NCBI GenBank assembly: GCA_031254315.1
Contig: JAIRUQ010000126.1
Location: forward strand, 1-45,456
Direction of reading: 5' to 3'
Source of the DNA: Treponema sp.
GTDB taxonomy: Bacteria; Spirochaetota; Spirochaetia; Treponematales; Breznakiellaceae
Length of the DNA: 45,456 bases
A model generated the notes under the pieces. That model was not told where the DNA came from and did no database searches. It saw nothing but the letters and a program-made list of their open reading frames with translations. Positions within the stretch are counted from its first letter, which is position 1; each line of letters starts with the position of its first letter. Made by a program: the position numbers and the translations under genes. Below, in pieces: positions 1,645-28,584 of the stretch.

Positions 1645-1673
1645 TTGCACACTTCCCTTCAAAAAAGTATATT
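1645..1673 (+). promoter_or_regulatory. valS operon promoter, nearly leaderless
   Basis: TTGCAC (1645-1650), 17 bases, TATATT (1668-1673). Only nine bases separate the -10 box from the ATG at 1683, so transcription should start about three bases before or at the start codon. No Shine-Dalgarno sequence is present between 1660 and 1682, which agrees with leaderless translation. Confidence 0.7.
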
Positions 1674-1682
1674 GATACTACA

Positions 1683-4337
1683 ATGAATTCAATTGAACTC
1701 GCGAAATCCTATGATCCAAAATCCTTTGAAGATCGCATCTATGCCCTATGGAAGGAAAACGGCTGTTTTGCCCCTGAAGCGGCAAAAGAGAGCGGCAAAA
1801 ACTCGTTTGTCGTGGTAATTCCGCCGCCAAATGTTACGGGCGTACTGCACCTTGGGCATGGGCTTAATAACAGTCTTCAGGACATTATTGTCCGTTTTCA
1901 CAGAATGACGGGGGAACCGACCCTGTGGGTTCCCGGTACGGATCACGCCGGAATCGCCACCCAGAACGTGGTGGAACGCAAGCTCAAAGAACAGGGAAAA
2001 AGCCGCAGGGAGCTTGGGCGCGAAAAGTTCCTTGAAGAAACATGGAAGGTAAAAAAGGAACATCACGCCATCATCACAAAACAGCTTGAAAAAATAGGGG
2101 CAAGCGTTGACTGGAAACGCGAACGCTTCACAATGGACGAAGGGCTCTCTCAGGCGGTGCGTGAAGTTTTTGTTACCCTTTATGAGCGTAACCTTCTATA
2201 TAAAGGGAATTATCTTGTAAACTGGTGTACTTCCTGCGGAACCGCCCTCGCCGATGACGAGGTCGATCACGAAGACACTGCCGGAAAAATGTACCATCTG
2301 CGATATTTTTTTACAGGCGAAAAAGACAAATATATCGAAATTGCCACAACACGCCCCGAAACTTTGTTAGGCGACACTGCGGTTGCGGTACACCCCGAAG
2401 ATGAGCGCTACAGTTCATTGAAAGGCAAAACTCTGCGCCTTCCGCTTACGGAGAGGGACATTCCCCTAATCTTTGACACTTATGTTGAGCGTACCTTTGG
2501 AACAGGAGCGTTAAAAGTAACCCCTGCCCACGATCCCAATGACTGGGAACTCGCGAAAAGGCATAACTTGGCTGTCATCAATATCCTCAATCCTGACGGA
2601 ACGTTAAACGACGAAGTTCCTGAAAAATACCGTTCCCTTCCCGTTAAAAAGGCGCGGCAGGCGGTAATCGAGGACTTAATCGCAGGCGGCTGGTTTGTAA
2701 AAGAAGAGCCCCTCAATCACTCTGTTGGTCATTGTTACCGCTGTCATACAGTAATCGAGCCTTTTCTTTCAGAGCAGTGGTTTGTAAGAATGAAGCCGTT
2801 AGCTGAAAAGGCTCTTGCCTCTTGGCAGAAGGGCGAGATTATTTTCTATCCCAAAAAATGGGAAAACACATATAAACACTGGATGGAAAATATAAGGGAC
2901 TGGTGCGTCAGCCGCCAGTTGTGGTGGGGGCATCGTATTCCTGCGTGGACTTGCGCGGACTGCGGCAAACTCACAGTTTCACGTAACGACATTGAAACCT
3001 GCCCGTCCTGCTCAAGCAAAAATATTGAAAGAGACCCTGATGTTCTTGATACTTGGTTTTCAAGCTGGCTCTGGCCATTCAGCACTCTTGGCTGGAATAA
3101 AGTTGGCATCTCAACTTCCGATCTGGATCGCTACTACCCCACTACCGCGCTTATTACAGCGTACGACATTATTTTCTTTTGGGTTGCCAGAATGATAATG
3201 GCAGGACTTGAGTTTACAGGCAAAGCTCCGTTCCGTGACATTTACATTCACGGGCTTGTGCGCGACAAGCTGGGGCGTAAGATGAGCAAATCTCTCGGCA
3301 ACGGTCTTGATCCCCTTGAACTGGTAGACGAGTTCGGCGCGGACGCGATGAAGTTTACTCTCGCTTTTATGTGCGCGCAGGGACAGGACATACTTGTTGA
3401 CAAAGAATCTTTTAAGATGGGATCAAAATTCGCTAACAAGGTGTGGAACGCCAGCCGCTATGTTTTGATGAATCTTGAAGGTCGAAATTTAGTACAAAAT
3501 TCAGACCTGCTTCCCGTAGACGAATGGATTTATTCACGGCTGAACAGCGCGGCAAAGTCCATGAGAGACGCTTTCCTTTCTTATCGATATAATGACGCGG
3601 CGCAAACCGCTTATGAATACTTCTGGAATGATTTTTGCGACTGGTATCTTGAAGCGACAAAACTTTCCATGAAAGGCGGAGATGACGCTGAAAAAGATCG
3701 CGCGACAACGGTGTTGTTAGACGTATTGTCATCTTCGCTTAAACTGCTTCATCCGCTTCTGCCGTTTGTAACGGAAGAAATTTATCAAAAACTGCCGAAC
3801 GCGCACGGGACTATGCTCATAAACAGCCTCTACCCCGAATATGACGAAAAATGCCATTCTCCGGCGGAAGAAAAAAACTTTTTTGCTCTTCAATCGCTTG
3901 TGGGCATGGTACGGACATTGCGAAGCGAATGTGGCATAACGCCGGAGAAAAAATTGCGTGTGCTTGTACGCGCGGGCGAAGAGCAGAAACCTTTCCGTCA
4001 AAATGAAGGGTTGATAAAACTCCTCGCCGGCATTGGCGAGATTACGATCGAAGCAGTAGGGGAGGCAAAACGTCCTGAAGGCTCAATCGGTATCGCCGGA
4101 ACAGGTTTTGAAGTGTTTGTCTTTGTTGCCGAAGCGGTAGATACTCAGGCGTTAAAGAAAAAATTCTCAAATGATCTTGAGAGAGACCGAAAATATATAG
4201 AGGGACTGCGGGCAAAACTCGCTAACGAACAGTTTGTCAAAAACGCTCCGCCCCAGCTTGTCGCGGAGCAGAAAATCAAACTTGAAGAAACTCTTCTGCG
4301 GACTGAAAATCTTGGCAGTTATATAAGGGATTTGTAA
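1683..4337 (+). CDS. valS: Valyl-tRNA synthetase
   Basis: 884 residues, the usual length for ValRS. It charges tRNA-Val with valine in the cytoplasm. The class I signatures are clear: PPPNVTG followed by HLGHG (HIGH box, about residues 56-60) and KMSKSLGN near residue 533. The editing domain lies between, and a Lys/Glu-rich coiled-coil tail occupies about residues 815-884, as in other ValRS. It is the first gene of an eight-gene unit; its TAA overlaps the ATG of the HD-domain gene by one base. The start has no ribosome site and sits just below a promoter, implying a near-leaderless message. Confidence 0.97.
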   Translation: MNSIELAKSYDPKSFEDRIYALWKENGCFAPEAAKESGKNSFVVVIPPPNVTGVLHLGHGLNNSLQDIIVRFHRMTGEPTLWVPGTDHAGIATQNVVERKLKEQGKSRRELGREKFLEETWKVKKEHHAIITKQLEKIGASVDWKRERFTMDEGLSQAVREVFVTLYERNLLYKGNYLVNWCTSCGTALADDEVDHEDTAGKMYHLRYFFTGEKDKYIEIATTRPETLLGDTAVAVHPEDERYSSLKGKTLRLPLTERDIPLIFDTYVERTFGTGALKVTPAHDPNDWELAKRHNLAVINILNPDGTLNDEVPEKYRSLPVKKARQAVIEDLIAGGWFVKEEPLNHSVGHCYRCHTVIEPFLSEQWFVRMKPLAEKALASWQKGEIIFYPKKWENTYKHWMENIRDWCVSRQLWWGHRIPAWTCADCGKLTVSRNDIETCPSCSSKNIERDPDVLDTWFSSWLWPFSTLGWNKVGISTSDLDRYYPTTALITAYDIIFFWVARMIMAGLEFTGKAPFRDIYIHGLVRDKLGRKMSKSLGNGLDPLELVDEFGADAMKFTLAFMCAQGQDILVDKESFKMGSKFANKVWNASRYVLMNLEGRNLVQNSDLLPVDEWIYSRLNSAAKSMRDAFLSYRYNDAAQTAYEYFWNDFCDWYLEATKLSMKGGDDAEKDRATTVLLDVLSSSLKLLHPLLPFVTEEIYQKLPNAHGTMLINSLYPEYDEKCHSPAEEKNFFALQSLVGMVRTLRSECGITPEKKLRVLVRAGEEQKPFRQNEGLIKLLAGIGEITIEAVGEAKRPEGSIGIAGTGFEVFVFVAEAVDTQALKKKFSNDLERDRKYIEGLRAKLANEQFVKNAPPQLVAEQKIKLEETLLRTENLGSYIRDL

Positions 4338-4894
4338 TGACTCATGAACAGATGCAACAATTAAGCGGTCTTAGCCTTGCCCCGTATATCCAGGTAGCGA
4401 CACACTTAATCGGTAAATCGCGCGAAGGCGGCGGAAATATGTTCCGTCATCAGCTTGACACTATGTCAATCCTTATTGACTACAATTATATAGATTCGGT
4501 ATTGCTAAAGGCATCGCTCGTCCATGATCTGATTGAAGATATTCCCGAATTTAATCACAATGTTTTGCTCTCCATTGATTTTGAAAGCCATGCTGTCTAC
4601 GACCTTGTCATGGAAGTTACGCGCCGTTACGGAGAAACAAAGCCTGATTTTCTTACGCGCATAATTAAATTTGGTTCGCATAACGCTAAAATTCTTAAAG
4701 TCGCGGATCGTATCTCCAACATGATTTCCCTTGGCTTTGTGAACAACCTTGAATTCGTCGAACGTTACATTAATGAAACTGAATATTTTCTTCTCCCTCT
4801 TGCCGCCGAGGTGAACAACAATATGCTGACAGAGCTGACAGACCTTGTAGCCTCAAGACGGAAATATCTTGAGGATTTTCGTAACTTAAAATGA
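4337..4894 (+). CDS. HD-domain metal phosphohydrolase (SpoT/MESH1-like)
   Basis: 185 residues with the HD hydrolase pattern: H38, H63-D64, the ED pair E67-D68, and D124-R125-N128 in KVADRISNM. This arrangement matches the (p)ppGpp-hydrolase part of RelA/SpoT and the stand-alone MESH1/SAH-type enzymes, but there is no synthetase, TGS or ACT domain. A small-alarmone or nucleotide phosphohydrolase is the best reading; the substrate is not shown by sequence. It overlaps valS by one base and dxs by four (ATGA), so it is made from the same mRNA. Its place just after an aminoacyl-tRNA synthetase fits a stringent-response role, which is inference. Confidence 0.8.
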   Translation: MTHEQMQQLSGLSLAPYIQVATHLIGKSREGGGNMFRHQLDTMSILIDYNYIDSVLLKASLVHDLIEDIPEFNHNVLLSIDFESHAVYDLVMEVTRRYGETKPDFLTRIIKFGSHNAKILKVADRISNMISLGFVNNLEFVERYINETEYFLLPLAAEVNNNMLTELTDLVASRRKYLEDFRNLK

Positions 4895-6795
4895 TAAAAC
4901 AACCTGAAATATTGTCAAACCTCAATTCTCCCACTGAATTAAAAAAAATGTCCGTGCGTGAATTAAACCGGCTTGCCGAGGAAATAAGAGAAAAAATAGT
5001 TTCGACAGTTGCAAGTAACGGTGGACATCTTGCGTCAAATCTTGGGGTTGTGGAACTTAGTATCGCCCTTCATAAAACTTTCAATTCGCCTGAGGATAAA
5101 ATAATATGGGATGTCGGACACCAGTGTTATGCGCATAAACTGCTGACAGGACGCACTGCCAATTTTTCAACCCTTCGCAGGGAAGGCGGAATTGCCGGTT
5201 TTCCAAAAAGCACAGAAAGCCCCCATGACGCTTTTAATACGGGACACGCATCCACTTCGATTTCAGCCGCCCTTGGGCTTCTGGCGGCGGACAGAATCAA
5301 TGGCGGCAAATCTTACGCGATAGCCGTAATTGGGGACGGCGCTCTTACGGGCGGGATGGCGTATGAGGCTCTCTCTCACGCGGGGCATCTTGGGCTTCCT
5401 TTAATTGTTATTCTTAATGACAATAAAATGTCTATCAGCAGAAATGTCGGGGGGCTTTCAAAATATTTAAGCCGTCTTTCCCTCAAAAGAAATTATCAAA
5501 CTTTCCGCCGTCATTTTGACGCAATGGTAAAAAAGCTCCCCTTTATAGGAGAGGCTTTTTTCAACCTTATTGTCAGATTAAAAAGGGCTGTTAAAGCGGT
5601 ATTTTATATCGATAATTTTTTTGTTGATCTCGGTTTTGAATATGTGGGACCAATAGGAGGGCACAACATTCAAGCCCTGTCAAGCGTTTTTGAAGACGCG
5701 AAAAAATTGAACCGTCCTGTTGTCATTCATGTAATTACGCGCAAAGGCAAAGGCTACGGCTACGCGGAAGACGACCCAGACAGTTACCATGGAGTAGGTT
5801 CATTTTCTGTTGACGGCGGTATTGAAAAAGATGATCCCGAAAGAAAAAAAAGTTTTACTGAAGTCTTCTCAAGCATCCTTCTTGACTCGGCGAAAAATGA
5901 TAAACAAATAGTAGCCGTTACTGCCGCAATGCAAACGGGAACGGGACTCTCCCCTTTCGCCCAAGCCTTCGCGGATCGCTTTTTCGATGTGGGCATCGCA
6001 GAAGAACACGCTGTAACCTTCGCCGCAGGACTTGCCGCTCAAGGACTAAAACCTGTGGCGGCGGTTTATTCCACATTTATCCAGCGCGCCGTCGATCAGA
6101 TAATTCACGATGCCGCTCTTCAAAAACTGCCTGTAATTTTCGCGCTGGACAGGGCGGGTTTTACAGGGGCTGACGGCGAAACTCATCAGGGACTGTTTGA
6201 CATAACCCTCTTTCGAAGCGCGCCAAATATGACGCTCCTGTCCCCCGCAAGCGAGAACGAAATGCGGCTTATGTTCAACTGGGCTTTTGGTCAAAAAAAT
6301 GGTCCCGTCATTATTCGCTACCCAAAGGCATATTGCCCAAAAGAGCAGACCGTTTTTTCACAGCCGCTTGAAAGTGGGCGCGGTATTTGGGTTGAAAAGA
6401 GCGGAAAAAACGAGGTGTGCCTCCTATTTACCGGAAGCCTCTACAGGGAAGCGGCGGAAGCCTCGGCGCTGTTAAAAGAGGACGGAATTGAAGCTGATTT
6501 ATACAATATAAGGTTTCTAAAACCTGTTGACGAAGAGTACCTTGTCAATTTAATGAACGAATACAAATTGATTGCTGTTATCGAAGAGGGGATAAGGGAA
6601 GGCGGCTTCGCGGAGTACACATCGGCTTTGGCGCAAAGACATTCCTGCAGGGCAAAGACGGTGGTTCTTGCCGTAGAAAGCACATTTTTAGAAGAAGACA
6701 GGGCGCTTGGCACCAGGGAAGAATTACTGTCCTTAAACGGTCTTGACGGCAAAAGCATAGCAAAAACAGTCAAAAGCGTATATGATATAAAATAA
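4891..6795 (+). CDS. dxs: 1-deoxy-D-xylulose-5-phosphate synthase
   Basis: 634 residues, full length. It condenses pyruvate and glyceraldehyde-3-phosphate to DXP using thiamine diphosphate, the entry step of the MEP isoprenoid pathway. Seen: GGHLASNLG near residue 44 with the substrate/TPP histidine, the TPP motif GDGALTGG from residue 148 with its Asn partners near 176-178, and VGIAEEHAV in the second domain with the catalytic Glu. The start codon overlaps the HD gene by ATGA and the stop overlaps cdaA by one base. No other MEP genes are in the window. Confidence 0.97.
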   Translation: MIKQPEILSNLNSPTELKKMSVRELNRLAEEIREKIVSTVASNGGHLASNLGVVELSIALHKTFNSPEDKIIWDVGHQCYAHKLLTGRTANFSTLRREGGIAGFPKSTESPHDAFNTGHASTSISAALGLLAADRINGGKSYAIAVIGDGALTGGMAYEALSHAGHLGLPLIVILNDNKMSISRNVGGLSKYLSRLSLKRNYQTFRRHFDAMVKKLPFIGEAFFNLIVRLKRAVKAVFYIDNFFVDLGFEYVGPIGGHNIQALSSVFEDAKKLNRPVVIHVITRKGKGYGYAEDDPDSYHGVGSFSVDGGIEKDDPERKKSFTEVFSSILLDSAKNDKQIVAVTAAMQTGTGLSPFAQAFADRFFDVGIAEEHAVTFAAGLAAQGLKPVAAVYSTFIQRAVDQIIHDAALQKLPVIFALDRAGFTGADGETHQGLFDITLFRSAPNMTLLSPASENEMRLMFNWAFGQKNGPVIIRYPKAYCPKEQTVFSQPLESGRGIWVEKSGKNEVCLLFTGSLYREAAEASALLKEDGIEADLYNIRFLKPVDEEYLVNLMNEYKLIAVIEEGIREGGFAEYTSALAQRHSCRAKTVVLAVESTFLEEDRALGTREELLSLNGLDGKSIAKTVKSVYDIK

Positions 6796-7619
6796 TGGCA
6801 TGGTTTCAAACTATTATTGTTATATATGATTATATCCGCCCGGTTCTGGATGTAGCCCTTCTCGCCTTCATTATTTACAAGGGCTATGAACTCCTTGAAA
6901 AAACACAGGCTCTGCCGCTTATTAAGGGAGCCGCCTTTCTTGTCCTTGTCTACGGTATCGCTTTTCTTTTTAAACTTACAACTTTGCGCTGGGTGCTAAC
7001 CATGATCGCTCCCGGACTTTTCATCGCGGTAGCCATTGTCTTTCAACCTGAACTGCGAAAGATATTTATGCGCCTTGGGCAGGCTGAATTTTTCCGTCCC
7101 AACGCGGCTGTACAAATAGGAAAACTTGATGCGGTTGTTACTTCGGCGGAACTCCTTTCTCAGAAAAGGCGAGGAATGTTAGTTGTTTTCCCAAGGAAGA
7201 TCAATCTAAAAAATATTATTGATACCGGCACAAGGATCAACGCTGAAATTTCATCAAGCCTTATTGTCGCTCTTTTTGAATTTGACGGACCTCTGCACGA
7301 CGGCGCTATTGTTGTACAGGGCGGAAAAATCGCCGCCGCCGGATGTTTTTTGCCGCTTTCAGAAAGGCAGGACATACGCAAAAATTTCGGCACTCGCCAC
7401 AGGGCAAGCCTTGGCATGGCGGAACAGTCCGATGCTGTAGTACTGATTGTCTCTGAAGAAACAGGGGCAATCTCCCTTGCTTATGACTCGAAAATCTACT
7501 ACGATTTGTCTTCCTCAGAAATTACGCGCAAATTAATGGAATTGCTTGACAAGGGGAGCAGAAAAGAAATTGAACAAAAAGATACTTCCGTAGAAGAAGG
7601 GGAGGTAATTGTTGAATAG
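6795..7619 (+). CDS. cdaA: Membrane diadenylate cyclase CdaA
   Basis: 274 residues. Three hydrophobic helices fill about residues 5-85, followed by a DisA_N cyclase domain with the signature PLHDGA (D169-G170-A171) and GTRHRA (R201-H202-R203). These motifs bind ATP and metal to make cyclic di-AMP from two ATP, a second messenger controlling potassium, osmolytes and wall stress. The family is also known as YbbP/DacA. It overlaps dxs by one base and the YbbR-type regulator downstream by several bases, the classic cdaA-cdaR arrangement. A Glu-rich tail follows the cyclase domain. Confidence 0.95.
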   Translation: MAWFQTIIVIYDYIRPVLDVALLAFIIYKGYELLEKTQALPLIKGAAFLVLVYGIAFLFKLTTLRWVLTMIAPGLFIAVAIVFQPELRKIFMRLGQAEFFRPNAAVQIGKLDAVVTSAELLSQKRRGMLVVFPRKINLKNIIDTGTRINAEISSSLIVALFEFDGPLHDGAIVVQGGKIAAAGCFLPLSERQDIRKNFGTRHRASLGMAEQSDAVVLIVSEETGAISLAYDSKIYYDLSSSEITRKLMELLDKGSRKEIEQKDTSVEEGEVIVE

Positions 7620-8349: not shown

Positions 8350-8720
8350 TTACCGGAATTGGAATTGATATTGTCCAGATAAATCGCATAGAGAATTGGC
8401 TCAACAATAAAAAACTTATTGAAAGATATTTTCACCCGGAAGAGATTTCACTTGCTACTTCAAGGAAAAACAGCGAAGCCCAAACACTTGCGGCAAGATT
8501 CGCGGCAAAAGAAGCGTTTGGCAAGGCTCTTGGAACAGGGTTCGCTAATATCACTTTAAAAGATATTATGGTAATTAATGAGGGCAACGGAAAACCGGAA
8601 ATAAAATTATTTGGGTCGGCGCAAAAGGCGTTTGAAAAATCAGGGGCGAGTAAGGTGCATATTTCCCTTACACATGAAAGGGACAACGCGGTGGCTATGA
8701 TCGTTTTGGAGGGGGCGTAG
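8346..8720 (+). CDS. acpS: Holo-[acyl-carrier-protein] synthase
   Basis: 124 residues, normal for AcpS. It transfers 4'-phosphopantetheine from CoA to ACP, activating fatty-acid synthesis. The opening ITGIGIDIVQINRIE carries Mg-binding D8, and RFAAKEAFGKALG holds the second conserved acid E56. It overlaps cdaR by four bases and is followed five bases later by the DUF2225 gene. Confidence 0.96.
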   Translation: MITGIGIDIVQINRIENWLNNKKLIERYFHPEEISLATSRKNSEAQTLAARFAAKEAFGKALGTGFANITLKDIMVINEGNGKPEIKLFGSAQKAFEKSGASKVHISLTHERDNAVAMIVLEGA

Positions 8721-8725
8721 GAAAA

Positions 8726-9595
8726 ATGGCAAAAAAACCAAATGTAATAAAAGAGTTAAAAACTACTTTTCAATCAAAAAAGGAATATACATGCCCTGCA
8801 TGTGATACTGTATTTCGCAAGGAAGAACTGCTCTCAGGCGGCGGCAGATTGATAGCGGGCAAACTTACAGAAGAACTTCACAGGCTTTATGAGCCTTCTG
8901 CGAAATACGGGGAGGTTTTTCCGCTTGTATATCAATCCATTGTCTGTCCCGAATGTTGGTTTTCATCAATGGAAAATGACTTCCCGCTTCTGCCCGCTGA
9001 TAAAAGAGAAACAGCAAAAAACGAAGCAGAAAAACGAAGAAAGGAGACTTGTTTAATTTTTCCCGATACGGATTTTTATGAAGCAAGGTCATTATTAGAA
9101 GGGGCGGCTTCACAGTACCTTACATTACGCTGTTATGATTATTACACCAAACAAGTTTCACCTACAATTAAACAGGGGCTTGCTTCAATTCGATGCGCAT
9201 GGCTCCTTGACGAGCTTCACAAAAAATATCCGGGACAGCACTTTGACTGGCTTGGCACACTCTTCCGTAAAAAATCCCATTATCTGTACAACGAAGCTCT
9301 ATCCCGCGAGCAAAGCGGCAAAGAAACTCTTTCAGGCATAAAAGTATTCGGTCCTGATACAGATAAAAATTATTCGTACGAAGGAATGTTATACATGTGC
9401 GCCTATCTTCGATATAAATACGGTCCGGCTAATGATGCCGCTCAAAGGACATCGTCTCTGGAAGACGCTCGCCGTACAATAGCCAAACTTTTCGGCATGG
9501 GAAGATCGTCAAAGGATAAACCGGGCGCGTTCCTTGAACTGGCAAGAAAACTCTATGACACAATAAATCATGACCTTACAGCAGAAAGCGAATAA
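8726..9595 (+). CDS. DUF2225-family protein with zinc-binding cysteines
   Basis: 289 residues. Near the N-terminus are two Cys pairs, C23-P-A-C26 and C74-P-E-C77, which should hold a zinc ion; the rest is a helical region with repeated Tyr/Leu patterns (for example YEGMLYMCAYLRYKYG) typical of the DUF2225 family and of TPR-like folds. The role of this family is not established. It lies five bases after acpS and nine before truA, with a TAGGAAAA ribosome site, so it belongs to the same operon. Confidence 0.8.
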   Translation: MAKKPNVIKELKTTFQSKKEYTCPACDTVFRKEELLSGGGRLIAGKLTEELHRLYEPSAKYGEVFPLVYQSIVCPECWFSSMENDFPLLPADKRETAKNEAEKRRKETCLIFPDTDFYEARSLLEGAASQYLTLRCYDYYTKQVSPTIKQGLASIRCAWLLDELHKKYPGQHFDWLGTLFRKKSHYLYNEALSREQSGKETLSGIKVFGPDTDKNYSYEGMLYMCAYLRYKYGPANDAAQRTSSLEDARRTIAKLFGMGRSSKDKPGAFLELARKLYDTINHDLTAESE

Positions 9596-9604
9596 CAAAA
9601 CAAT

Positions 9605-10345: not shown

Positions 10346-10355
10346 AGAGAATACG

Positions 10356-10510: not shown

Positions 10511-10537
10511 CCCCTGCTCATTTTTCCCAAAATCCTA

Positions 10538-10566: not shown

Positions 10567-10595
10567 TCTTTCAGACGAAAAAAAATCTGGACGGC

Positions 10596-15963: not shown

Positions 15964-15970
15964 AGGCTGT

Positions 15971-19209: not shown

Positions 19210-20871
19210 TCAATACTTAAACTCGCTATCCCCGATAAATTCGCGGAGGATGCTTGTGCCGGGTACATATTGCGGCGGAATTGGCATAAAGTTTTCAAGG
19301 AATGACAGTAACCTTACAGCTTCGGCGTATTCAACATTGCTTGGCTTTACCGCGCGCAATAGCGGGTCGGCGTAGTATTTAAGAACCGAAAGCTCATAAT
19401 CAAGAGCAGAATTAAAAGCTGTATCTGATGAGCCTTGGAACGGGAAAATGTGCTTGCGCTCCCCTGCCTGCACCTTAGGCCACATTTTAATTGTGCCTGC
19501 CGCGGACATTCCTCTGAATTGGGAATCGCGCACCATGCGCCTAAGAAGCCTGTTGTCGCTTGTAGGAATTCTGTTGTGATCGTCAAGGTTAAGTTGAGTA
19601 AGAGCGGAAATATAAACCTTAAACTTTAATTTGCGATCTATACTGTGTGTAAGAGCGTCGTTAAGACCGTGAATACCTTCAACTATCAATATATTATTCT
19701 TTTCTAATTTAATTTTTCTGCCGCCGGTTTCTTTTCTGGTTCCGGTTTTAAAATCATAAACGGGGAGCGATATTTCTTCTCCGCGAAAAAGGGCTTGAAG
19801 TTGTTTATTAAGATACGGAACATCAAGGGCTTCAAGACATTCATAATCAGGCTCGCCTTTTTCATCTTTGGGAGTTTCCGCCGTTCCCCTATAGTAATCG
19901 TCAAGGCTGATGGCGATTGGTTTTAACCCCGATACCATAAGTTCAATTTCAAGCCGCTTCGCGCTCGTTGTCTTTCCTGAGCTTGAAGGTCCTGCTATTA
20001 ATACCATTTTTATATCTTTGCGTCTTTCATGAATTTGGTTCGCGATATCCGCCATGTTTCTTGCCTGATGCGCCTCCGCTATTCTTATAAATTCTAAAAA
20101 AGTTCTGTTAGTAATCCGCGCGTTTAGCTCTCCTACGACACGCACTCCGATAATCTTTCCCCAATTTTTATAATCGTTGTAAACATTAAAAAACACAGGC
20201 TCATCTACAAAAGGCTCAAGCTTCATTCCTTTGCCAACGCCGGGGTAGCGAAGCAAAAATCCGTCATGGTATGGCATAAGTTCAAAAACAGAAAGTTGCC
20301 CCGTACGGAAAAGGAGCGGCTGAATATAAATATCCATAAAGCCCTTACATTCATTAACTTTTATGCGCGGCGAGCTTTTTTGCTCCAAAAGCAGGGCTGT
20401 GTCCTTTTGCTTGTAGTCTTTGAATAACTGCACGGCTTCTTCATAAGCTAAATATTTAAATGTTATTAACAGATTTTCTTTTACAATTTTATTCATTTCT
20501 TGACTAAGTTTTTCTACATCGCCGTCCTTTGGTTTATCGCCTGAACTTAATGTATAATAATAACTGTTGCCAAGCGACTGTCCGACATACACACCGTCCT
20601 GCGGAAAAATACTCTGCGCGGCTATAGAAAGGACAAAGGAAAGGGTTCGCCTGTAGATCATTGCCCCTTCATGCGAATCGACAAGAACAGGCTCTACAGA
20701 GGCGTTCATAAGCAAGGATGTCCCAAGAGGTCGAATCTCGTTATTTACCTTGATTGCCGCCAGTTCTTCGGCAGGGATGTTTAAATGCTCAAGTAGCGTC
20801 GCGGCTTTTGTGCCATAAGCGCAGGTTACCGTTTTCTTTGTGTTAATAAAATGAATTTGAAGATCGCTCAT
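19210..20871 (-). CDS. Nucleoside (uridine) kinase with synthetase-like N-terminus
   Basis: 553 residues. The C-terminal half is a phosphoribulokinase/uridine-kinase P-loop domain: Walker A GPSSSGKTT (294-302) and the lid/acceptor motif SLDDYYRG near 325. The N-terminal third begins with a TGS-like ubiquitin fold and a region like the second additional domain of threonyl-tRNA synthetase, a fusion found in spirochaetes and Firmicutes. It probably phosphorylates uridine or cytidine for pyrimidine salvage. Its promoter puts the -10 box five bases before the ATG with no ribosome site, suggesting a leaderless message. It lies 50 bases after pncB on the same strand. Confidence 0.85.
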   Translation of the reverse strand: MSDLQIHFINTKKTVTCAYGTKAATLLEHLNIPAEELAAIKVNNEIRPLGTSLLMNASVEPVLVDSHEGAMIYRRTLSFVLSIAAQSIFPQDGVYVGQSLGNSYYYTLSSGDKPKDGDVEKLSQEMNKIVKENLLITFKYLAYEEAVQLFKDYKQKDTALLLEQKSSPRIKVNECKGFMDIYIQPLLFRTGQLSVFELMPYHDGFLLRYPGVGKGMKLEPFVDEPVFFNVYNDYKNWGKIIGVRVVGELNARITNRTFLEFIRIAEAHQARNMADIANQIHERRKDIKMVLIAGPSSSGKTTSAKRLEIELMVSGLKPIAISLDDYYRGTAETPKDEKGEPDYECLEALDVPYLNKQLQALFRGEEISLPVYDFKTGTRKETGGRKIKLEKNNILIVEGIHGLNDALTHSIDRKLKFKVYISALTQLNLDDHNRIPTSDNRLLRRMVRDSQFRGMSAAGTIKMWPKVQAGERKHIFPFQGSSDTAFNSALDYELSVLKYYADPLLRAVKPSNVEYAEAVRLLSFLENFMPIPPQYVPGTSILREFIGDSEFKY

Positions 20872-20876
20872 AGGCT

Positions 20877-20906
20877 ATTATAACATAATATTATTTAATT
20901 TGTCAT
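20877..20906 (-). promoter_or_regulatory. Leaderless promoter of the nucleoside kinase
   Basis: On the minus strand ATGACA (20906-20901), 18 bases, TATAAT (20882-20877), then five bases and the ATG at 20871. A perfect -10 box so close to the start codon means transcription begins at or beside the A of ATG. Confidence 0.75.
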
Positions 20907-20921
20907 GTATTTAAGAGGGAA

Positions 20922-22367: not shown

Positions 22368-22371
22368 ATTG

Positions 22372-23025
22372 TTATTTTAATCTGTCAATAAGATCATTGG
22401 AAGAGTAAAATTCTATTCCGGCGGCTTTCATTTCTGAAATTGCCTTTTCGATTGAGCCTTCGGGAAAGCCTACTCCGCGAACAGCGTCGCTTGCGATAAT
22501 GGTATTAAAGCCCAATTTTTTACAGTCCATGGCGCTGAAGAACACGCAGTAATCGGTGGCAATTCCTCCAATGATAACGGTTTCTATACCAAGACATTTT
22601 AGCCAGCCTTCAAGTCCTGTTGGGGTCTTTCGGTCGTTTTCAAAAAAAGCGGAATAAGAATCAAGTTCTTTTCTAAAACCTTTGCGAACAATCATTGAGA
22701 CCGGAGAAAGCTCAAGGGCTGAATGAAACTCCGCGCCCCCAGTCCCCTGAACACAGTGGTCGGTCCAAAGAACCTGTCCCTTTACAAGAGCGGTATCAAT
22801 TATTTCTCCCACTTTGCATCCACTGTGTGAAGAGGCGAAAGAAACATGCCCCGTACAATGCCAGTCCTGAGTAGCGGCGACACGCCCTCCCCTTTCGGCA
22901 AAAGCGCGGGACAGAGCGTTCAGCGGCGCGACAACAGCGTCCCCGTTATTTACCGCAAGCGCCCCCCCAGGACAGAAATCGTTCTGAACGTCAATTAGCA
23001 ATAAAAGTGTTTTAATAGAGTCCAT
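22372..23025 (-). CDS. pncA: Nicotinamidase
   Basis: 217 residues. It deamidates nicotinamide to nicotinate, feeding PncB. The isochorismatase-type catalytic triad is present: D12 in LIDVQNDFCPGGAL, K115 in VRKGF and C160 in GIATDYC; the metal site D54, H56 and H90 is also there. Directly upstream of pncB in the same unit. The promoter is of the leaderless type (TATATT ends seven bases before the ATG). Confidence 0.95.
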   Translation of the reverse strand: MDSIKTLLLLIDVQNDFCPGGALAVNNGDAVVAPLNALSRAFAERGGRVAATQDWHCTGHVSFASSHSGCKVGEIIDTALVKGQVLWTDHCVQGTGGAEFHSALELSPVSMIVRKGFRKELDSYSAFFENDRKTPTGLEGWLKCLGIETVIIGGIATDYCVFFSAMDCKKLGFNTIIASDAVRGVGFPEGSIEKAISEMKAAGIEFYSSNDLIDRLK

Positions 23026-23032
23026 AAATGAT

Positions 23033-23062
23033 AATATAAACCAAAAGATACTAAACTGTAAA
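23033..23062 (-). promoter_or_regulatory. Leaderless promoter of pncA-pncB
   Basis: TTTACA (23062-23057), 18 bases, TATATT (23038-23033), seven bases to the ATG at 23025. No Shine-Dalgarno sequence precedes the start codon. Confidence 0.75.
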
Positions 23063-23076
23063 CCCTACACTAAAAG

Positions 23077-23262
23077 ATATCCAAAGAATATTAACCACGG
23101 AGGACACGGAGTTCACGGAGAGAAGAAAAGAGGAAGAGAGGAAGTTTTCTGAACAGAGCGCCGTGGATCGTTGTTAGTTATCAAAGCGAGAAATCAACAC
23201 GCTTAGATTACTAACAACTCTCTCTTCCTTACTCCGTGTCCTCCGTGGTTCTCTTCTCTTCC
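23077..23262. repeat. Palindromic CCACGGAGG element, copy 2 (long loop)
   Basis: Arms with AACCACGGAGGACACGGAG (from about 23092) and its reverse complement CTCCGTGTCCTCCGTGGTT (ending near 23250) bracket a loop of about 110 bases. The loop holds its own inverted repeats: GTTGTTAGT with ACTAACAAC, and GAGGAAGAGAGGAAG with a CTCTCTCTTCC stretch. The left flank ATCCAAAGAATATTA matches copies 1 and 3. It lies between the pncA promoter and the accA stop. Confidence 0.8.
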
Positions 23263-23272
23263 TTTGCTCTTT

Positions 23273-24076
23273 TTATTCCGTGAAAACTCCAATCTTGCGG
23301 AACTTCTGATACCGTTTTTCGGGGAGCCTGCCAAAGTCTTCTTTGCTCAGCTTGCTTACGGTTTCTGTGAGCCAGCTACTGATGTTCTGCGCTGTCTTGT
23401 TCACGTCCTTAGACGCTCCGCCTTCAGGCTCAGCGATAATTTTATCGCAAACGCCAAAACGGTTGAGGTCTTCGGCGGTAATTTTCATCAGCTCCGCGGC
23501 TTCCCTTTCCCTTGAGCCGTCTTTCCACAGAATGGAAGCAAAACCTTTGGGCGAGATTACCGAATACAGGGCGTTTTCAAGCATGGCAAGTTCATCGCAT
23601 ACGCCAAGAGCCAACGCTCCGCCTGAGCCTCCCTCTCCAAGTACAACAGAAACGACAGGAGTTTTCAGCATCATGAACTCGTGAAGGTTACGCGCAATCG
23701 CTTCTCCCTGACCACGCTCTTCCGCGCCTACTCCGCAGTACGCTCCGGGAGTGTCAATAAAACATATAACAGGGCGACCGAATTTTTCAGCCTGTTTAGC
23801 GAGGCGCAACGCCTTGCGGTAGCCTTCAGGATGCGGCATCGAAAAATTGATCTTTTGCAGTCCTTCAATATCTTTGGCGCGCACCTGTGAAACAACTGTT
23901 ACGGGATTGCCGTTCAAAAGACAAATGCCGCCAAGAAGAGCCGGGTCGTCGCTGTAGTAGCGGTCACCGTGGAATTCAATAAAGTCCTTAAAGATAAGAG
24001 GAATATAATCGCGTATGGTCGGACGTCCAAGACTTTTTAATAAGTCGAGTTTTTGTTGCATGTTCAAAGCCATCAT
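23273..24076 (-). CDS. accA: Acetyl-CoA carboxylase carboxyltransferase alpha
   Basis: 267 residues, somewhat shorter than the 319 of E. coli but without a missing core. It transfers CO2 from carboxybiotin to acetyl-CoA with AccD, giving malonyl-CoA for fatty acids. Typical blocks: IEFHGDRYYSDDPALLGG, FIDTPGAYCGVGAEERGQ and GEGGSGGALALGV (oxyanion/biotin site). Begins at an ATG overlapping the accD stop by four bases. accB and accC are not in the window. Confidence 0.95.
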   Translation of the reverse strand: MMALNMQQKLDLLKSLGRPTIRDYIPLIFKDFIEFHGDRYYSDDPALLGGICLLNGNPVTVVSQVRAKDIEGLQKINFSMPHPEGYRKALRLAKQAEKFGRPVICFIDTPGAYCGVGAEERGQGEAIARNLHEFMMLKTPVVSVVLGEGGSGGALALGVCDELAMLENALYSVISPKGFASILWKDGSREREAAELMKITAEDLNRFGVCDKIIAEPEGGASKDVNKTAQNISSWLTETVSKLSKEDFGRLPEKRYQKFRKIGVFTE

Positions 24077-24846
24077 TGTCCTCCTTTGTAGCCGTGCAGG
24101 GCGATAATTTTCGCGAGCATATCAGGCAATTCTTTGCGGTGATAAACCGCGTCAACAAATCCGTGTTCATGAACAAACTCCGAAGTTTGGAAACGATCGG
24201 GTAATACCGCGCCGATTGTGTCTTGAATGACGCGCTTTCCGGCAAACCCTAAAGTTACTCCCGGCTCAGCGAGAATTATATCGCCAAGCATAGCGAATGA
24301 CGCAGTAACGCCGCCTGTTGTCGGGTCTGTAATTACCGAGATATAAAGCTGACCCGCGTCCGTGTGCCGCGCGACCGCGCCTGAAGTTTTCGCCATCTGC
24401 ATAAGAGAGATAATTCCCTCCTGCATACGCGCGCCGCCAGAAGCGGAAAAAACAATTGCCGGCAATTTATTCGCTGTCGCGTATTCAATCGCCCTTGTAA
24501 TTTTTTCTCCGACTACGCTACCCATGCTCGCCATCATAAAACGGCTGTCCATAATACCGATTACCGCCGGGAAACCCTTTATGGTACAGCGACCTGTAAC
24601 AACCGCTTCTGAGGTTTCGCAATTTTTCATAAGTTCAGTAATTTTCTTTTCATAATCGGGGAATTCAATCGGATTACCCGATTTCATACCCGAATCGAAC
24701 TCGTTAAAACTACCCTGATCCGCGGTAATACTCAGCCTCTGCTGCCAGCCCAATCTGGAATGATTACCGCAAGCATCGCAGACCCAGAGGTTTTTCTCCG
24801 GATCGGCAACGGGTTTTTGACATTGGGAACAAATAAAATCTGCCAT
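24073..24846 (-). CDS. accD: Acetyl-CoA carboxylase carboxyltransferase beta
   Basis: 257 residues. Zinc finger C6-x2-C9 ... C23-x2-C26 at the N-terminus, then the crotonase-fold core with FSASGGARMQEGI and DPTTGGVTASFA. Forms the alpha2beta2 carboxyltransferase with AccA, which follows it. Strong promoter directly upstream with the -10 box six bases from the ATG and no ribosome site. The accDA unit is bracketed by repeat copies 2 and 3. Confidence 0.95.
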   Translation of the reverse strand: MADFICSQCQKPVADPEKNLWVCDACGNHSRLGWQQRLSITADQGSFNEFDSGMKSGNPIEFPDYEKKITELMKNCETSEAVVTGRCTIKGFPAVIGIMDSRFMMASMGSVVGEKITRAIEYATANKLPAIVFSASGGARMQEGIISLMQMAKTSGAVARHTDAGQLYISVITDPTTGGVTASFAMLGDIILAEPGVTLGFAGKRVIQDTIGAVLPDRFQTSEFVHEHGFVDAVYHRKELPDMLAKIIALHGYKGGQ

Positions 24847-24852
24847 AAAGTC

Positions 24853-24881
24853 AATTTAGACAGATTCCAAGAAAATGTCAA
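24853..24881 (-). promoter_or_regulatory. Leaderless promoter of accDA
   Basis: TTGACA (24881-24876), 17 bases, TAAATT (24858-24853), then six bases to the ATG at 24846. The usual distance from -10 box to transcription start places +1 on the A of the start codon. Confidence 0.8.
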
Positions 24882-24931
24882 GTTGATTCATTGACAATTT
24901 TCGATGTTTGGGGCATATTTTTGAGGTAGGG

Positions 24932-25046
24932 ACTGTTCGGGAAGAATATAAAACCACGGAGAAACACGGAGTTTTGGTACGATTTCTTTCTTTAATCCTC
25001 CGTGAACTCCGTGTCCTCCGTGGTGAAATTCTTACTTTTTGGACTT
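24932..25046. repeat. Palindromic CCACGGAG element, copy 3
   Basis: Same loop (TTTTGGTACGATTTCTTTCTTT) and outer flanks (GAAGAATAT... and GAAATTCTTACTT) as copy 1, with arms ACCACGGAG and CTCCGTGGT. The left arm lacks the GACACGGAG unit found in copies 1 and 2, so it is a slightly decayed copy. It lies between the accD promoter and tRNA-Thr. Confidence 0.85.
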
Positions 25047-25058
25047 TTCCTATTATTA

Positions 25059-25131
25059 GCCGTCTTAGCTCAGCTGGCAGAGCACTTGACTTGTAATCAT
25101 GAGGTCTTCGGTTCAATTCCGAAAGACGGCT
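25059..25131 (+). tRNA. tRNA-Thr (anticodon TGT)
   Basis: 73 bases. Acceptor GCCGTCT pairs fully with AGACGGC; D-arm GCTC...GAGC; anticodon loop CTTGTAA with TGT; T-arm TTCGG-TTCAATT-CCGAA. The anticodon stem (CTTGA/TCATG) has one T-T mismatch. CCA is not encoded, and the T-run right after the gene can end transcription. Confidence 0.92.
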
Positions 25132-25195
25132 TTTTTTCGCCTTTAAGTTGCATGGGGAAGGTTTGCGATTTTAAATGAAGATAAAAGAGGAAATC

Positions 25196-26095
25196 ATGAA
25201 AATCGGCAAGACAGGAAAAACAACAATAAAAATAATAGCATCGGTTTTGTTGATCGTAATATCTTTGTTGGTTTCATTAAGCGCCTCATCATTGCGGTAT
25301 GACGGCAGGGATAACAGCAGGCTTCAAAAGCAATTAACCGAGAAATTGACGAAAGTCGCGGTTGTCTGGGCAACGGTAAAAGTTGTAAGCGGCGTCATTT
25401 CTGTTGTTAAAACTATTCAGGTGGAAGGCTCTATTCCTGTTGTCGGCGGTTTGGCAGTATCCGCTCAGCCTTTAGGATGGGCTGATGTTATAGATAATAT
25501 TTTAGATAAAATCTCTACCCTTTTGCTTTGGGCAATGGGGGCAATTACCATAGAAAAATTATTATTAGCTGTATCAGTGTGGGTCTCGCTCAAAATAGTT
25601 ATTCCGCTCTGCGCTGTATTTGTTGTCATAACGATATGGTATAAAAAATATCAGGAACAGTTAAAAAGAATTATAGCGGGTATTATAATAATTGGGCTTA
25701 GTATTAGCTTAGCGATTCCATTGTCTCTGGGATTGTCTAACGTAATAGAAACCTCTATCCTTTCGAGTCAGATAAACAAAACAATGAATGAATTGGAGGG
25801 ACAATCGCGGGAAATTGAAAAAGAAGGGGATGTCGATACTTCTTTATTGAGGCAGATAGGCGCGAGTATAGCGAATTTTTTTAGCGGTTTGAAACAAAAA
25901 TTTGATTCATTTATTGAGAACACAATAAATTATATTATGTGCTTTATTGTAACAAGTTTATTAATTCCTGTTATAACGCTTTTTGGCTTAAAATACCTTG
26001 TTGGCGTAACGCTGAGGTTTATAGGTTTTCCGGCAAAAGGGGACGCTGTCATACGCTTTCTGCCGGGAAAAAAGGAAAAACTTGAAATTACTTGA
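25196..26095 (+). CDS. Membrane protein of unknown function
   Basis: About 299 residues from ATG 25196, which has AAGAGGAAA upstream (an ATG at 25175 lacks a site). An N-terminal hydrophobic segment (KIIASVLLIVISLLVSLSAS) looks like a signal or first helix; further membrane helices lie near residues 115-155, 160-185 and 250-280. A polar stretch with a coiled-coil look (LEGQSREIEKEGD) lies between helices. I do not recognise the family. It is 65 bases after tRNA-Thr and 19 before the metallophosphoesterase gene, so the two proteins may be co-expressed. Confidence 0.65.
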   Translation: MKIGKTGKTTIKIIASVLLIVISLLVSLSASSLRYDGRDNSRLQKQLTEKLTKVAVVWATVKVVSGVISVVKTIQVEGSIPVVGGLAVSAQPLGWADVIDNILDKISTLLLWAMGAITIEKLLLAVSVWVSLKIVIPLCAVFVVITIWYKKYQEQLKRIIAGIIIIGLSISLAIPLSLGLSNVIETSILSSQINKTMNELEGQSREIEKEGDVDTSLLRQIGASIANFFSGLKQKFDSFIENTINYIMCFIVTSLLIPVITLFGLKYLVGVTLRFIGFPAKGDAVIRFLPGKKEKLEIT

Positions 26096-26114
26096 CAAAG
26101 GGTTGTAATACAAA

Positions 26115-26918
26115 ATGTCAATTCTGTTTTCAGGTGATTTTCACGCTAACGCAAGAGGCGAGCTTGACTTAATTACCAAAGATTCTCTCATAGATAAATA
26201 CGGTCAGAAAATATACGACAGCATTAACTACCACATAATTCTGGGAGACGGAGGTTTTATGTGGCAGAATAATGAAGAAAAAGACAAACACAATTACAAA
26301 ATACTTGGAAAGAGATCATTCCCTGTCCTGTGTGTATTGGGCAACCATGAACCAATCTACGGTATGAAAAACGTACCTGAAGAAGACATCGGTCTTGGAG
26401 AGACAGTCTATAAGATAAAAGCCAAACCTTTTGTCGCCTATCTTAAGCGGGGGAAGGTTTATGTTATTGACGGTATCAAATTTTTGGTTTTAGGCGGGGC
26501 GTTATCTATAGATAAAAACAGGCGAATTCCAAATAAATCATGGTGGGAGAATGAATATTGGGATGAGCGGGAAAAGGAATATCTATATAAATTACTTGAA
26601 ACTGAAAACTCCTTTGATTGCGTCATCTCCCATATCGGTCCTCACCATATCAACCAAAAGTTGTTTCTCTTGGGCGGCGCGAGCATGGCTTTCCTATCTC
26701 ATCCAAAATTTAAAGACGAAGTCGCGTTTTTAAATGATGAGATACATAAAAGCATAAAATTTAAGGAATGGTGGAGCGGTCACTGGCATGAGGACAAATA
26801 CCATTACAATAAAAGCACAAAACGCAAATATCAGTATCTGTATAGAACCACCAAAATACTTAATAAAACGGATGGCAAGCTGGCGGTATACAACGAATAC
26901 GGTAAGGCAAAGCGGTAG
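26115..26918 (+). CDS. Calcineurin-like metallophosphoesterase
   Basis: 267 residues with all metal-binding motifs of the family: GDFH (D8, H10), GDGG (D45), GNHE (N77-H78-E79), an SHIGPHH block near 173, and GHWHED near 225. A two-metal phosphoesterase, probably cytoplasmic as no signal peptide is seen. The substrate (protein, nucleotide or nucleic acid) cannot be told. It follows the membrane protein gene closely; a TTGACA lies at the end of that gene but no matching -10 box does. Confidence 0.88.
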   Translation: MSILFSGDFHANARGELDLITKDSLIDKYGQKIYDSINYHIILGDGGFMWQNNEEKDKHNYKILGKRSFPVLCVLGNHEPIYGMKNVPEEDIGLGETVYKIKAKPFVAYLKRGKVYVIDGIKFLVLGGALSIDKNRRIPNKSWWENEYWDEREKEYLYKLLETENSFDCVISHIGPHHINQKLFLLGGASMAFLSHPKFKDEVAFLNDEIHKSIKFKEWWSGHWHEDKYHYNKSTKRKYQYLYRTTKILNKTDGKLAVYNEYGKAKR

Positions 26919-26936
26919 ATTTTTTCTTGGGGCGTT

Positions 26937-27060
26937 GCGGGGTTTCCCCGCTGAGGGGGGAAGCGGAATACGACCTCTAAAACTCTACGGAAGAAAGGCT
27001 TTACTGTTATAATTGTGTTTTAGTGGTCGTATGAAGCGTGGGGGGAGACTTCCCCCCTCA
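26937..27060. repeat. Nested palindromic element
   Basis: Three nested inverted repeats: GCGGGG-TTT-CCCCGC (26937-26951); TGAGGGGGGAAG (26952-26963) with CTTCCCCCCTCA (27049-27060); and ATACGACCTCTAAAAC (26968-26983) with GTTTTAGTGGTCGTAT (27017-27032), one mismatch. The loop (26984-27016) contains TTATAAT. No protein is encoded. It occupies the first part of the 355-base gap after the metallophosphoesterase gene and looks like a small mobile or structured-RNA element. Confidence 0.75.
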
Positions 27061-27102
27061 ATAAGAATTACAGTCTGCAGTCCATCTCTGACTAGCACCA
27101 AT

Positions 27103-27135
27103 CTTCATTCGCGTTCATTCGCGCAATTCGTTGAT
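27103..27135 (+). repeat. Solitary ATTCGT-type repeat arm
   Basis: CTTCATTCGCGTTCATTCGC then GCAATTCGTTGAT, closely similar to the right arm of the inverted repeat at 10473-10504. No pairing left arm is present here. Confidence 0.65.
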
Positions 27136-27181
27136 AAAAATTCCTTCTCTTTGCTCATTGACCTGCTTTCCAAAGCAAAAA

Positions 27182-27230
27182 TGTGAGAAAAATCACACTT
27201 TTCCCCGGTAAAAACGTGATTTTTCTCACA
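27182..27230. promoter_or_regulatory. Two CRP-consensus palindromes in tandem
   Basis: TGTGA-GAAAAA-TCACA (27182-27197) and CGTGA-TTTTTC-TCACA (27215-27230) each match the CRP/FNR-family consensus TGTGA-N6-TCACA, the second with one base off. Their centres are 33 bases apart, about three helical turns, and the second ends eight bases before the -35 box of the ATPase gene. The two are also reverse complements of each other over 15 bases. Which regulator binds is unknown. Confidence 0.7.
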
Positions 27231-27238
27231 AAATACCC

Positions 27239-27267
27239 TTGAAATATTGTGATTTATAGCCTATAAT
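27239..27267 (+). promoter_or_regulatory. Leaderless promoter of the DUF4143 ATPase
   Basis: TTGAAA (27239-27244), 17 bases, TATAAT (27262-27267), then six bases to the ATG at 27274. No ribosome site lies between. Downstream of the two palindromes at 27182-27230. Confidence 0.8.
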
Positions 27268-27273
27268 TGGCTT

Positions 27274-28584
27274 ATGAGGCGGAATATAACAGAATCCCTT
27301 TTACAGTGGAAAGAGAGTTCAGAGCGGAAGCCCCTGATTATTCAGGGAGCGCGGCAGGTGGGGAAAACATGGCTTATGAAAGAATTTGGCAGGAATTTTT
27401 ACGCCTCTACGGTATATATAAATTTTGATGATATGCGGATATTTCATGATCTTTTTATTCCTGATTTGAACATAAAACGAATCATAGCAAGTCTGGAACA
27501 AATTATGCGCGTTAAAATCAATGCTGATAACACGCTGATTATTTTTGACGAGATTCAGGAGTGTAACCGCGCTTTGGTTTCACTAAAATATTTTTGTGAA
27601 AATGCCCCTGAGTATCATATCATTGCGGCAGGCAGTTTTCTTGGGGTTGCCATACACGAAGATAATTCTTTTCCGGTGGGCAAAGTGGAAATAAAGACCT
27701 TGTACCCATTGAACTTTTTTGAATTTCTGACTGCTATCGGTGAAGAGGGTCTTGTGGAAGCGGCGGTAACACAGGACTATGCATATATACAGGGCTTAAA
27801 AAACCGGTACATCGAACTGCTAAAGCATTATTATTATACCGGCGGTATGCCCGAAGCGGTACTTACTTTTGCTCAGGAAAGAAACCTTGAGCGGGTAAGG
27901 GAAGTACAGCATGCCATAATTGCGGGCTATTCGGCGGATTTTTCCAAACATATTTCCGCCGCAGATATTCCAAAAGTTCATCTGCTGTGGAATTCTATTC
28001 CAGCCCAGCTTGCCAAGGAAAAGAAAAAATTTGTGTACAGCGACATAAAGCAGGGCGCAAGGGCAAGGGAATATGAAAATGCCCTTGGGTGGCTGGTTAA
28101 GAGCGGGCTTGTGTATAAGATAAACCGGGTAAGCCTGCCGGGACTGCCGTTAATCAGCTACGAGGAGCGTGAACATTTTAAGCTGTATATGCTGGATATT
28201 GGATTGTTATCTGCAAAAACGAATCTGGACATTTCAACTTTGCTTGCGCCGGACACCTCCCTATTCCGGCATTTCAAGGGCGCATTATCCGAACAATATG
28301 TTTTGCAGGAGTTAAAGTCCTTGGACAGCGAACTCCCTGTCTTTTACTGGACAAACGCAAAAAACACTTCAGAAATTGATTTTATAATTCAGAAATGGGA
28401 TACGGTAATTCCCCTCGAAGTAAAAGCGGAAACCAACCTAAAAGCAAAAAGCCTTACGTCATTTATGGAGAAACACAAGCCGCAAAAGGCTGTCCGTGCA
28501 TCCCTATCGGATTATAAACAGCACAGCAATATTTACGAAATACCCTTGTATTTGTTGGAGCGTTTGTTTCAATATATTGGATGA
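27274..28584 (+). CDS. AAA ATPase with C-terminal DUF4143
   Basis: 436 residues. N-terminal AAA_14 domain: Walker A GARQVGKT (25-32), Walker B LIIFDE (D92, E93), and the sensor-like AAGSFLGVA. The C-terminal half is the DUF4143 type, ending in EIDFIIQKWDTVIPLEVKAE (about 373-392), a PD-(D/E)xK-like pattern that hints at a nuclease fold. These proteins are widespread, often in many copies per genome, and their role is not settled. It is a single-gene unit with a leaderless promoter and two CRP-like sites. Confidence 0.9.
   Translation: MRRNITESLLQWKESSERKPLIIQGARQVGKTWLMKEFGRNFYASTVYINFDDMRIFHDLFIPDLNIKRIIASLEQIMRVKINADNTLIIFDEIQECNRALVSLKYFCENAPEYHIIAAGSFLGVAIHEDNSFPVGKVEIKTLYPLNFFEFLTAIGEEGLVEAAVTQDYAYIQGLKNRYIELLKHYYYTGGMPEAVLTFAQERNLERVREVQHAIIAGYSADFSKHISAADIPKVHLLWNSIPAQLAKEKKKFVYSDIKQGARAREYENALGWLVKSGLVYKINRVSLPGLPLISYEEREHFKLYMLDIGLLSAKTNLDISTLLAPDTSLFRHFKGALSEQYVLQELKSLDSELPVFYWTNAKNTSEIDFIIQKWDTVIPLEVKAETNLKAKSLTSFMEKHKPQKAVRASLSDYKQHSNIYEIPLYLLERLFQYIG

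Follow-up and report, generated by a model that had tools for sequence, protein, structure and literature searches.

Leaderless expression is a known mode in other bacteria, spirochaetes included. By prediction, about 20% of genes in actinobacteria and about 40% in Deinococcus-Thermus are leaderless, and in the accessible part of the same survey leaderless genes were predicted in 6 of 18 spirochaete genomes, at a mean of 3.9% (range, 1.8-6.9%) (Zheng et al. 2011, PMC3160421). In Leptospira interrogans, differential RNA sequencing (dRNA-seq) assigned a 5' untranslated region of <10 nucleotides (nt) to ~440 genes and placed the transcription start site exactly at the start codon in 184 genes at 30 °C and 170 genes at 37 °C, according to the accessible part of that report (PMC5243855). 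Here we describe five genes of a Treponema sp. (order Treponematales), valS, a nucleoside kinase gene, pncA, accD, and a DUF4143 ATPase gene, in which a sigma-70-type promoter ends immediately before the start codon and no Shine-Dalgarno (SD) sequence precedes it. The genes lie on contig JAIRUQ010000126.1 of assembly GCA_031254315.1 (3.1 Mb in 127 contigs), the entire 45,456 nt of which form the stretch analysed and are referred to as the window.

The arrangement can be set against the described systems as far as the accessible parts of the reports go. L. interrogans is likewise a spirochaete in which leadered genes occur together with many transcripts whose 5' end falls on the start codon or within 10 nt of it, but there the 5' ends were measured and the part of the report at hand gives no motif beyond sigma-54 sites, whereas here near-consensus sigma-70 boxes are read and the ends are predicted from them (PMC5243855). 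The genes with a TA-like signal of Zheng et al. share with ours a Pribnow-like box just upstream of the start, but our excess of 6-12% is a share of operon-first genes and thus has a different denominator (PMC3160421). Borrelia burgdorferi belongs to the same phylum, and leaderless transcripts are there said to "occur with a high frequency", the basis being a statement in a paper on ribosome structure (PMC10618245). Actinobacteria and Deinococcus-Thermus also have promoters at the start codon, no SD sequence, and SD-led genes alongside, but the share of such genes is larger there, and in this treponeme they are a minority class (PMC3160421). The original prediction, made from the window alone, had treated leaderless mRNAs as not known to be described as common in spirochaetes; this claim to novelty fails in view of their mapping in Leptospira, the high frequency stated for Borrelia, and the prediction for 6 of 18 spirochaete genomes. 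A literature search, judged from its listings, returned no description of leaderless mRNA in Treponema or in this order, and a Treponema pallidum proteome paper (PMC12687308) mentions "leaderless" once.

Results

Promoter boxes end 5-9 nt before the ATG of five genes that lack an SD sequence

On the forward strand, the valS promoter (1645..1673; TTGCAC-17-TATATT) ends 9 nt before the ATG of valyl-tRNA synthetase (1683..4337; 884 amino acids; assigned by Pfam, with most relatives aligning from Met-1), and the DUF4143 gene promoter (27239..27267; TTGAAA-17-TATAAT) ends 6 nt before an AAA_14 plus DUF4143 ATPase (27274..28584; 436 amino acids; Pfam). On the reverse strand, the kinase promoter (20877..20906; ATGACA-18-TATAAT, with an extended -10 box, TGnTATAAT) ends 5 nt before a nucleoside kinase of the uridine kinase/PRK family (19210..20871; 553 amino acids; Pfam), the pncA promoter (23033..23062; TTTACA-18-TATATT) ends 7 nt before a pncA-like hydrolase of the isochorismatase family (22372..23025; 217 amino acids; the Pfam family fits pncA), and the accD promoter (24853..24881; TTGACA-17-TAAATT) ends 6 nt before a carboxyl transferase subunit (24073..24846; 257 amino acids; the Pfam match fits accD). 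All five pairs and all five distances can thus be read directly from the DNA as they had been predicted. The spacer of 17 or 18 bases is sigma-70-type geometry in every case, and all five start codons are ATG. Calling the boxes near-consensus is apt for four genes and not for valS, whose -35 box is weak here (2.4 bits); in valS relatives the -35 box is TTGAAT or TTGAAA at the spacing seen in the window. Among 19,727 ATGs of a sample of the same genome (real starts included), an upstream pair matching or beating that of the window gene was found for 1.4% (valS), 0.06% (kinase), 0.2% (pncA), 0.13% (accD), and 0.05% (DUF4143), and valS is also the edge case for a -10-to-start distance of ~6 nt.

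The 30 bases upstream of the five starts hold no core SD sequence, defined as any of the 4-mers AAGG, AGGA, GGAG, GAGG, and AGGT, and contain only fragments such as TGAT and GTGAT. A broader definition (any 4-mer of TAAGGAGGTGAT) was dropped; under it, TGAT, GTGA, and TAAG passed for an SD, and even valS received the wrong label. SD-led genes nevertheless coexist with the five in the window, as had been proposed: the starts at 8726, 24076 (-), 30767 (-), 1131 (-), and 18520 have GGAGG or AGGAG. A core SD sequence precedes 93 of 230 first genes in our sample of this genome and 38-65% of first genes across six sequence sets from Treponematales. Because neither this assembly nor those of its same-genus relatives yielded a 16S gene, the anti-SD sequence was read from three order-mates (G025, G028, and G035), which retain CCTCC at the 16S 3' end. 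The anti-SD of the order-mates and the share of SD-led first genes together indicate that two modes of initiation coexist.

Near promoters are in excess before SD-less first genes across the order

The six sets were a 637-kb sample of this genome (the own sample, with 137 SD-less and 93 SD-bearing operon-first genes), the genomes G021, G025, G034, and G030 of the same order (one of them of the same genus; 38% to 64% GC, G030 being the one at 64%), and a set of 80 Treponematales loci that partly overlaps the same-genus genomes, so that the sets are not fully independent. Genes were called with a simple codon-usage caller that makes no use of upstream signal. We counted -35/-10 pairs whose -10 box ends 5-9 nt before the start and compared this count with those in other 5-nt windows. 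Such a pair preceded 17 of the 137 SD-less first genes of the own sample, as against 2, 4, 4, and 3 in the other windows (mean 3.25; p ~7e-8). The same excess was seen in G021 (10/82 versus a mean of 1.5), G025 (20/68 versus 0.5), G034 (10/35 versus 1.0), G030 (8/29 versus 0.25), and the 80-locus set (46/246 versus 5.25, with a still smaller p value), and in the control, Escherichia coli K-12, 0 of 86 SD-less first genes had a pair at this distance versus a mean of 2.0. As a share of all first genes, the excess amounts to 6.0% in the own sample, 6.4% in G021, 12.4% in G025, 11.1% in G034, 9.2% in G030, and 9.5% in the 80-locus set. The comparison of box-to-start distances that had been suggested with the prediction bears it out: the peak falls at 6 nt (10/137 in the own sample and 21/246 in the 80-locus set), and own-sample first genes that do have an SD are not enriched for such pairs (2/93 versus 1, 7, 6, and 5). 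A strict -10 threshold gave counts that were too low and was dropped, and a test of the -10 box by itself, weak in G021, was replaced by the pair test.

Over the six sets, 108 of 111 pair-bearing genes start with ATG, compared with 422 of the 486 remaining SD-less first genes (Fisher p 0.0007), although the caller itself favours ATG. The 17 near-promoter genes of the own sample have no predominant function; the 14 from outside the five include genes for a peptide deformylase, an alanyl-tRNA synthetase-like protein, a glycosyl transferase, a sugar transferase, an epimerase, a PilZ protein, a radical SAM protein, an isocitrate/isopropylmalate dehydrogenase, an aminotransferase, a phosphoesterase, and a phosphoribosyltransferase, and three genes without a Pfam match.

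The same position emerges without gene calls. When ATGs were located downstream of promoter-like pairs anywhere on both strands, with the counts at 14-39 nt as background, ATG was enriched at 6 nt after the -10 box in the own sample (24 versus a mean of 9.65), G021 (15 versus 5.9), G025 (17 versus 4.15), G034 (9 versus 3.2), and the 80-locus set (68 versus 34.7); in these five of the six sets, no count at 14-39 nt reaches the one at 6 nt. When the letters of ATG are put in another order, none of the five resulting triplets rises above its own background maximum at 6 nt in any of the six sets. The enrichment further depends on the promoter spacer: in five pooled genomes, 81 ATGs lie at 6 nt behind pairs with a 17-base spacer (versus ~33) and 28 behind pairs with an 18-base spacer (versus ~14), and eleven other spacings, 16 included, are near background.

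The arrangement is kept in the genus and has been exchanged with SD-led starts

The top 12 named matches of the window valS are metagenome-assembled genomes labelled "Treponema sp." (87% identity over the best segment for the best match), many of which, judging from their isolate codes, are probably of termite-gut origin. We classified same-genus orthologues of valS, the kinase, pncA, and accD, own genes included and restricted to rows within the genus; the search covered 24 genomes of the genus, 17 of which contributed a valS locus, and one pncA locus without a start was dropped. A near promoter without SD was found in 45 of 75 orthologues (valS 13/17, kinase 12/20, pncA 9/19, and accD 11/19), a core SD in 19, one of which (L282) has a near promoter too, and neither in 11. 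In a control window 11-16 nt upstream, a pair was present in 5 of the 75. The box stays beside the ATG in these orthologues, and the intervening bases vary. For the kinase, 14 of 20 orthologues, own included, have the -10 box 5-6 nt before the start; the -35 box is acceptable in 12 of these and weak in 2. We also note that the TGn extension of the kinase -10 box is present in 13 of 14 near-promoter orthologues, own included (L211-L224), and that the -35 box is poorly kept there. In the DUF4143 family, for which loci of 30 of the 55 listed matches were obtained, 19 of 30 members are of the near-promoter type.

For valS, a quick tree of 100 distinct protein rows was built from 110 loci (L001-L110), leaving out duplicates, loci with <50 nt upstream, partial N-termini, and short proteins. 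It contains 26 rows of the near-promoter type, 70 of the SD type, and 4 without a label. At least 8 changes of state occur on the tree, at least 5 of which are forced by strongly supported branches; shuffled labels need ~23 changes, and 0 of 500 shuffles were as low as 8. In the clade of this genome (17 rows), 16 rows have a near promoter without core SD and one (L036) is unlabelled, having a near promoter with an overlapping AAGG/AGGT. More distant valS relatives mostly have an SD-like site, often with a promoter further upstream. As a separate observation, six same-genus genomes (G022, G020, G016, G010, G012, and G015) show no accD-like genes other than ones ~48-50% identical to the window accD, and those read, at loci L283-L288, have an AAGG/AGGA-type SD in place of the near promoter.

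Repeats overlie the DUF4143 and accD promoters

The DUF4143 promoter region carries an imperfect palindrome in two copies, found by palindrome scoring: copy 1 (27193..27219) is the upstream one, and copy 2 (27226..27252), 33 bp downstream of copy 1, lies over the -35 box. Tandem Repeats Finder (TRF) detected no array here, the one unit that it reported being of 10 bp at 27104-27123. The family loci (L293-L322) were instead scored by shift autocorrelation and for palindromes. A repeat of at least 15/22 bases at some shift of 24-41 is present in 24 of 30 members, with the best shift at 32-34 in all 24; among control first genes of five samples (in which the window DUF4143 gene may be included), 54 of 685 have such a repeat, 16 of them at shift 32-34. 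At shifts 32 and 33, self-identity averages 0.45 and 0.48 in the family, as against 0.28 and 0.29 in 230 controls, and the palindrome scores are modestly above those of controls (7.87 and 7.93 of 12 versus 6.78 and 6.68). The repeat sequences vary among members, and similarity of the operator region tracks protein similarity (rho 0.34, 378 pairs, 28 members), a correlation to which the closest pairs contribute much, the 19 nearest having a mean score of 31.7; for a control region located further upstream, rho was 0.02. These operator-like repeats with a 32-33-bp period suggest gene-specific autoregulation with diverging specificity.

For accD, we observed a short inverted repeat, GACA..TGTC, between the -35 and -10 boxes (24859-24879, reverse strand), which reads GACAAAA-N7-TTTTGTC in L275-L277 and is partly retained in L274 and L278; in L279, L280, and L281, the start region has a near-perfect palindrome, GACAAAT..AAATTTGTC, that ends 3 nt before the ATG. 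A search for the accD palindrome in the own and G021 samples returned nine scattered matches. The inverted repeat between the boxes is a possible repressor site for carboxylase genes.

Discussion

The observations are best explained, with a high degree of confidence, by sigma-70-type promoters set so that transcription would start at, or within ~4 bases of, the A of the start codon, giving an mRNA without leader or SD. In the usual sigma-70 geometry, a -10 box that ends 6 nt before an ATG places +1 at its A. An ordinary promoter in this position would fire at or near the A of the ATG, the message would begin with AUG and have neither leader nor SD, and the ribosome would start on the 5'-terminal AUG as it does on leaderless mRNAs elsewhere, in a cell in which many other genes keep a leader and an SD. 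The distances of accD and the DUF4143 gene (6 bases), the kinase (5), and pncA (7) fit a true zero leader, and valS, at 9 bases here and 5-10 in relatives, would probably be left with 0-4 bases of leader, again not enough to hold an SD. Leaderless or near-leaderless transcription of these genes is very likely because of the genome-wide excess, the ATG peak that is independent of the caller, and the retention of the arrangement in relatives. The part of the original prediction that envisaged two translation modes in one organism is strongly supported by the positional peak, the -35 box at a spacer of 17, the ATG preference, the conservation, and the E. coli control; the part that treated leaderless mRNAs as not known to be described as common in spirochaetes is not.

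A variant of this explanation, which overlaps with it and which we consider possible rather than probable, is that the first transcribed base lies 1-5 bases before the ATG, which leaves a very short 5' end, again without SD. The distance of 8-10 nt between the valS box and the start in several relatives, the shoulder at 7-9 nt in G025 (7, 4, 5, and 4 genes at 6-9 nt), and the peak of G030 at 7 nt in the test without gene calls all point this way, but the main peak of the pair test is at exactly 6 nt in the own sample, G021, G034, and the 80-locus set, and weakly so in G030. Another reading is that the near promoters are incidental and that the real transcripts begin further upstream, ribosomes entering independently of an SD on a leader without structure. 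Extra -10-like boxes are indeed common in the AT-rich intergenic DNA, but the paired -35 box at 17, the sharp peak at 6 nt and its absence from SD-bearing own-sample genes, the E. coli control, and the persistence of the arrangement where the intergenic DNA has diverged make this improbable.

Somewhat more improbable still is that the starts are mis-annotated and that the real ones lie downstream behind SD sequences, with the near promoter feeding an ordinary leader. Within the first 100 codons, a core SD 4-mer does precede four internal in-frame starts (codons 71 and 94 of the kinase and codons 29 and 35 of the DUF4143 gene), but these do not rescue SD-led initiation because they lie inside protein that is kept from about residue 1 in same-genus relatives, so the alternative starts that had been thought able to overturn the prediction leave it standing. 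In same-genus orthologues of valS, the kinase, and accD, as in most relatives of the DUF4143 protein, the alignment begins near residue 1 and the start codon matches, the first residues of accD up to the first Cys are conserved in 12 relatives, own included, and the genome-wide peak is specific to ATG at 6 nt. As for coincidence in an AT-rich genome, lone -10 hexamers near starts are not rare, but the p values of the pair test and the presence of the signal at 64% GC (G030) reduce its likelihood to almost nothing.

Several points weigh against leaderless initiation and should be set beside this evidence. Where the transcripts begin, and how the ribosome enters them, is inferred here. All promoter tests score with a matrix of E. 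coli hexamer frequencies. The caller is crude: its choice of starts penalises GTG and TTG, and two of the five genes escaped its class of clean first genes, the kinase being classed as "mid" and accD being given a downstream start. A slight excess also appears in SD-bearing first genes of G030 (4/55 versus 2, 1, 2, and 1) and in operon-internal genes of the own sample (5/146 versus 3, 1, 2, and 0), the test of the -10 box by itself gave only 9 versus 5.4 in G021 (p 0.1), where the pair test is clear, and 11 of the 75 orthologues fit neither mode. In the test without gene calls, G030 has 2 ATGs at 6 nt and its peak at 7 nt (10 versus a mean of 3.15), the own sample has raised counts of GAT (17 at 6 nt and 16 at 7 nt; mean 8.3, with 17 also the background maximum) and of ATG at 8 nt (19), and E. 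coli has 8 ATGs at 6 nt versus 4.65, which is under its maximum of 10 elsewhere. In Deinococcus, included as a control from a leaderless-rich group, the peak is at 6 nt (4/97) but the total is just 5/97 versus 1.0, a low yield for the test. Because of this yield, and because two of the five window genes fell outside the clean class of the caller, we take the excess figures of 6-12% for lower bounds. Finally, the accessible part of a published comparison gives six Spirochaetes species a mean of -3.25 on its third component, on which a positive mean is the leaderless/S1 sign in bacteria (PMC5397173).

On sequence evidence drawn from large samples of genomes, the findings extend leaderless expression to this lineage of treponemes and to further members of the order. 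A tentative further proposal, which we regard as speculative, is that leaderless initiation in Treponematales is a conserved but evolvable state of individual genes, with housekeeping genes (valS, the nucleoside kinase, accD, and others) held leaderless across a clade of the genus and flipping to or from SD through gain or loss of a short leader, perhaps for different translation under stress or growth arrest. The orthologous sets in which SD-led and leaderless starts replace each other would allow a direct test of why genes go leaderless, and the annotation of start codons in these genomes should allow for leaderless starts.

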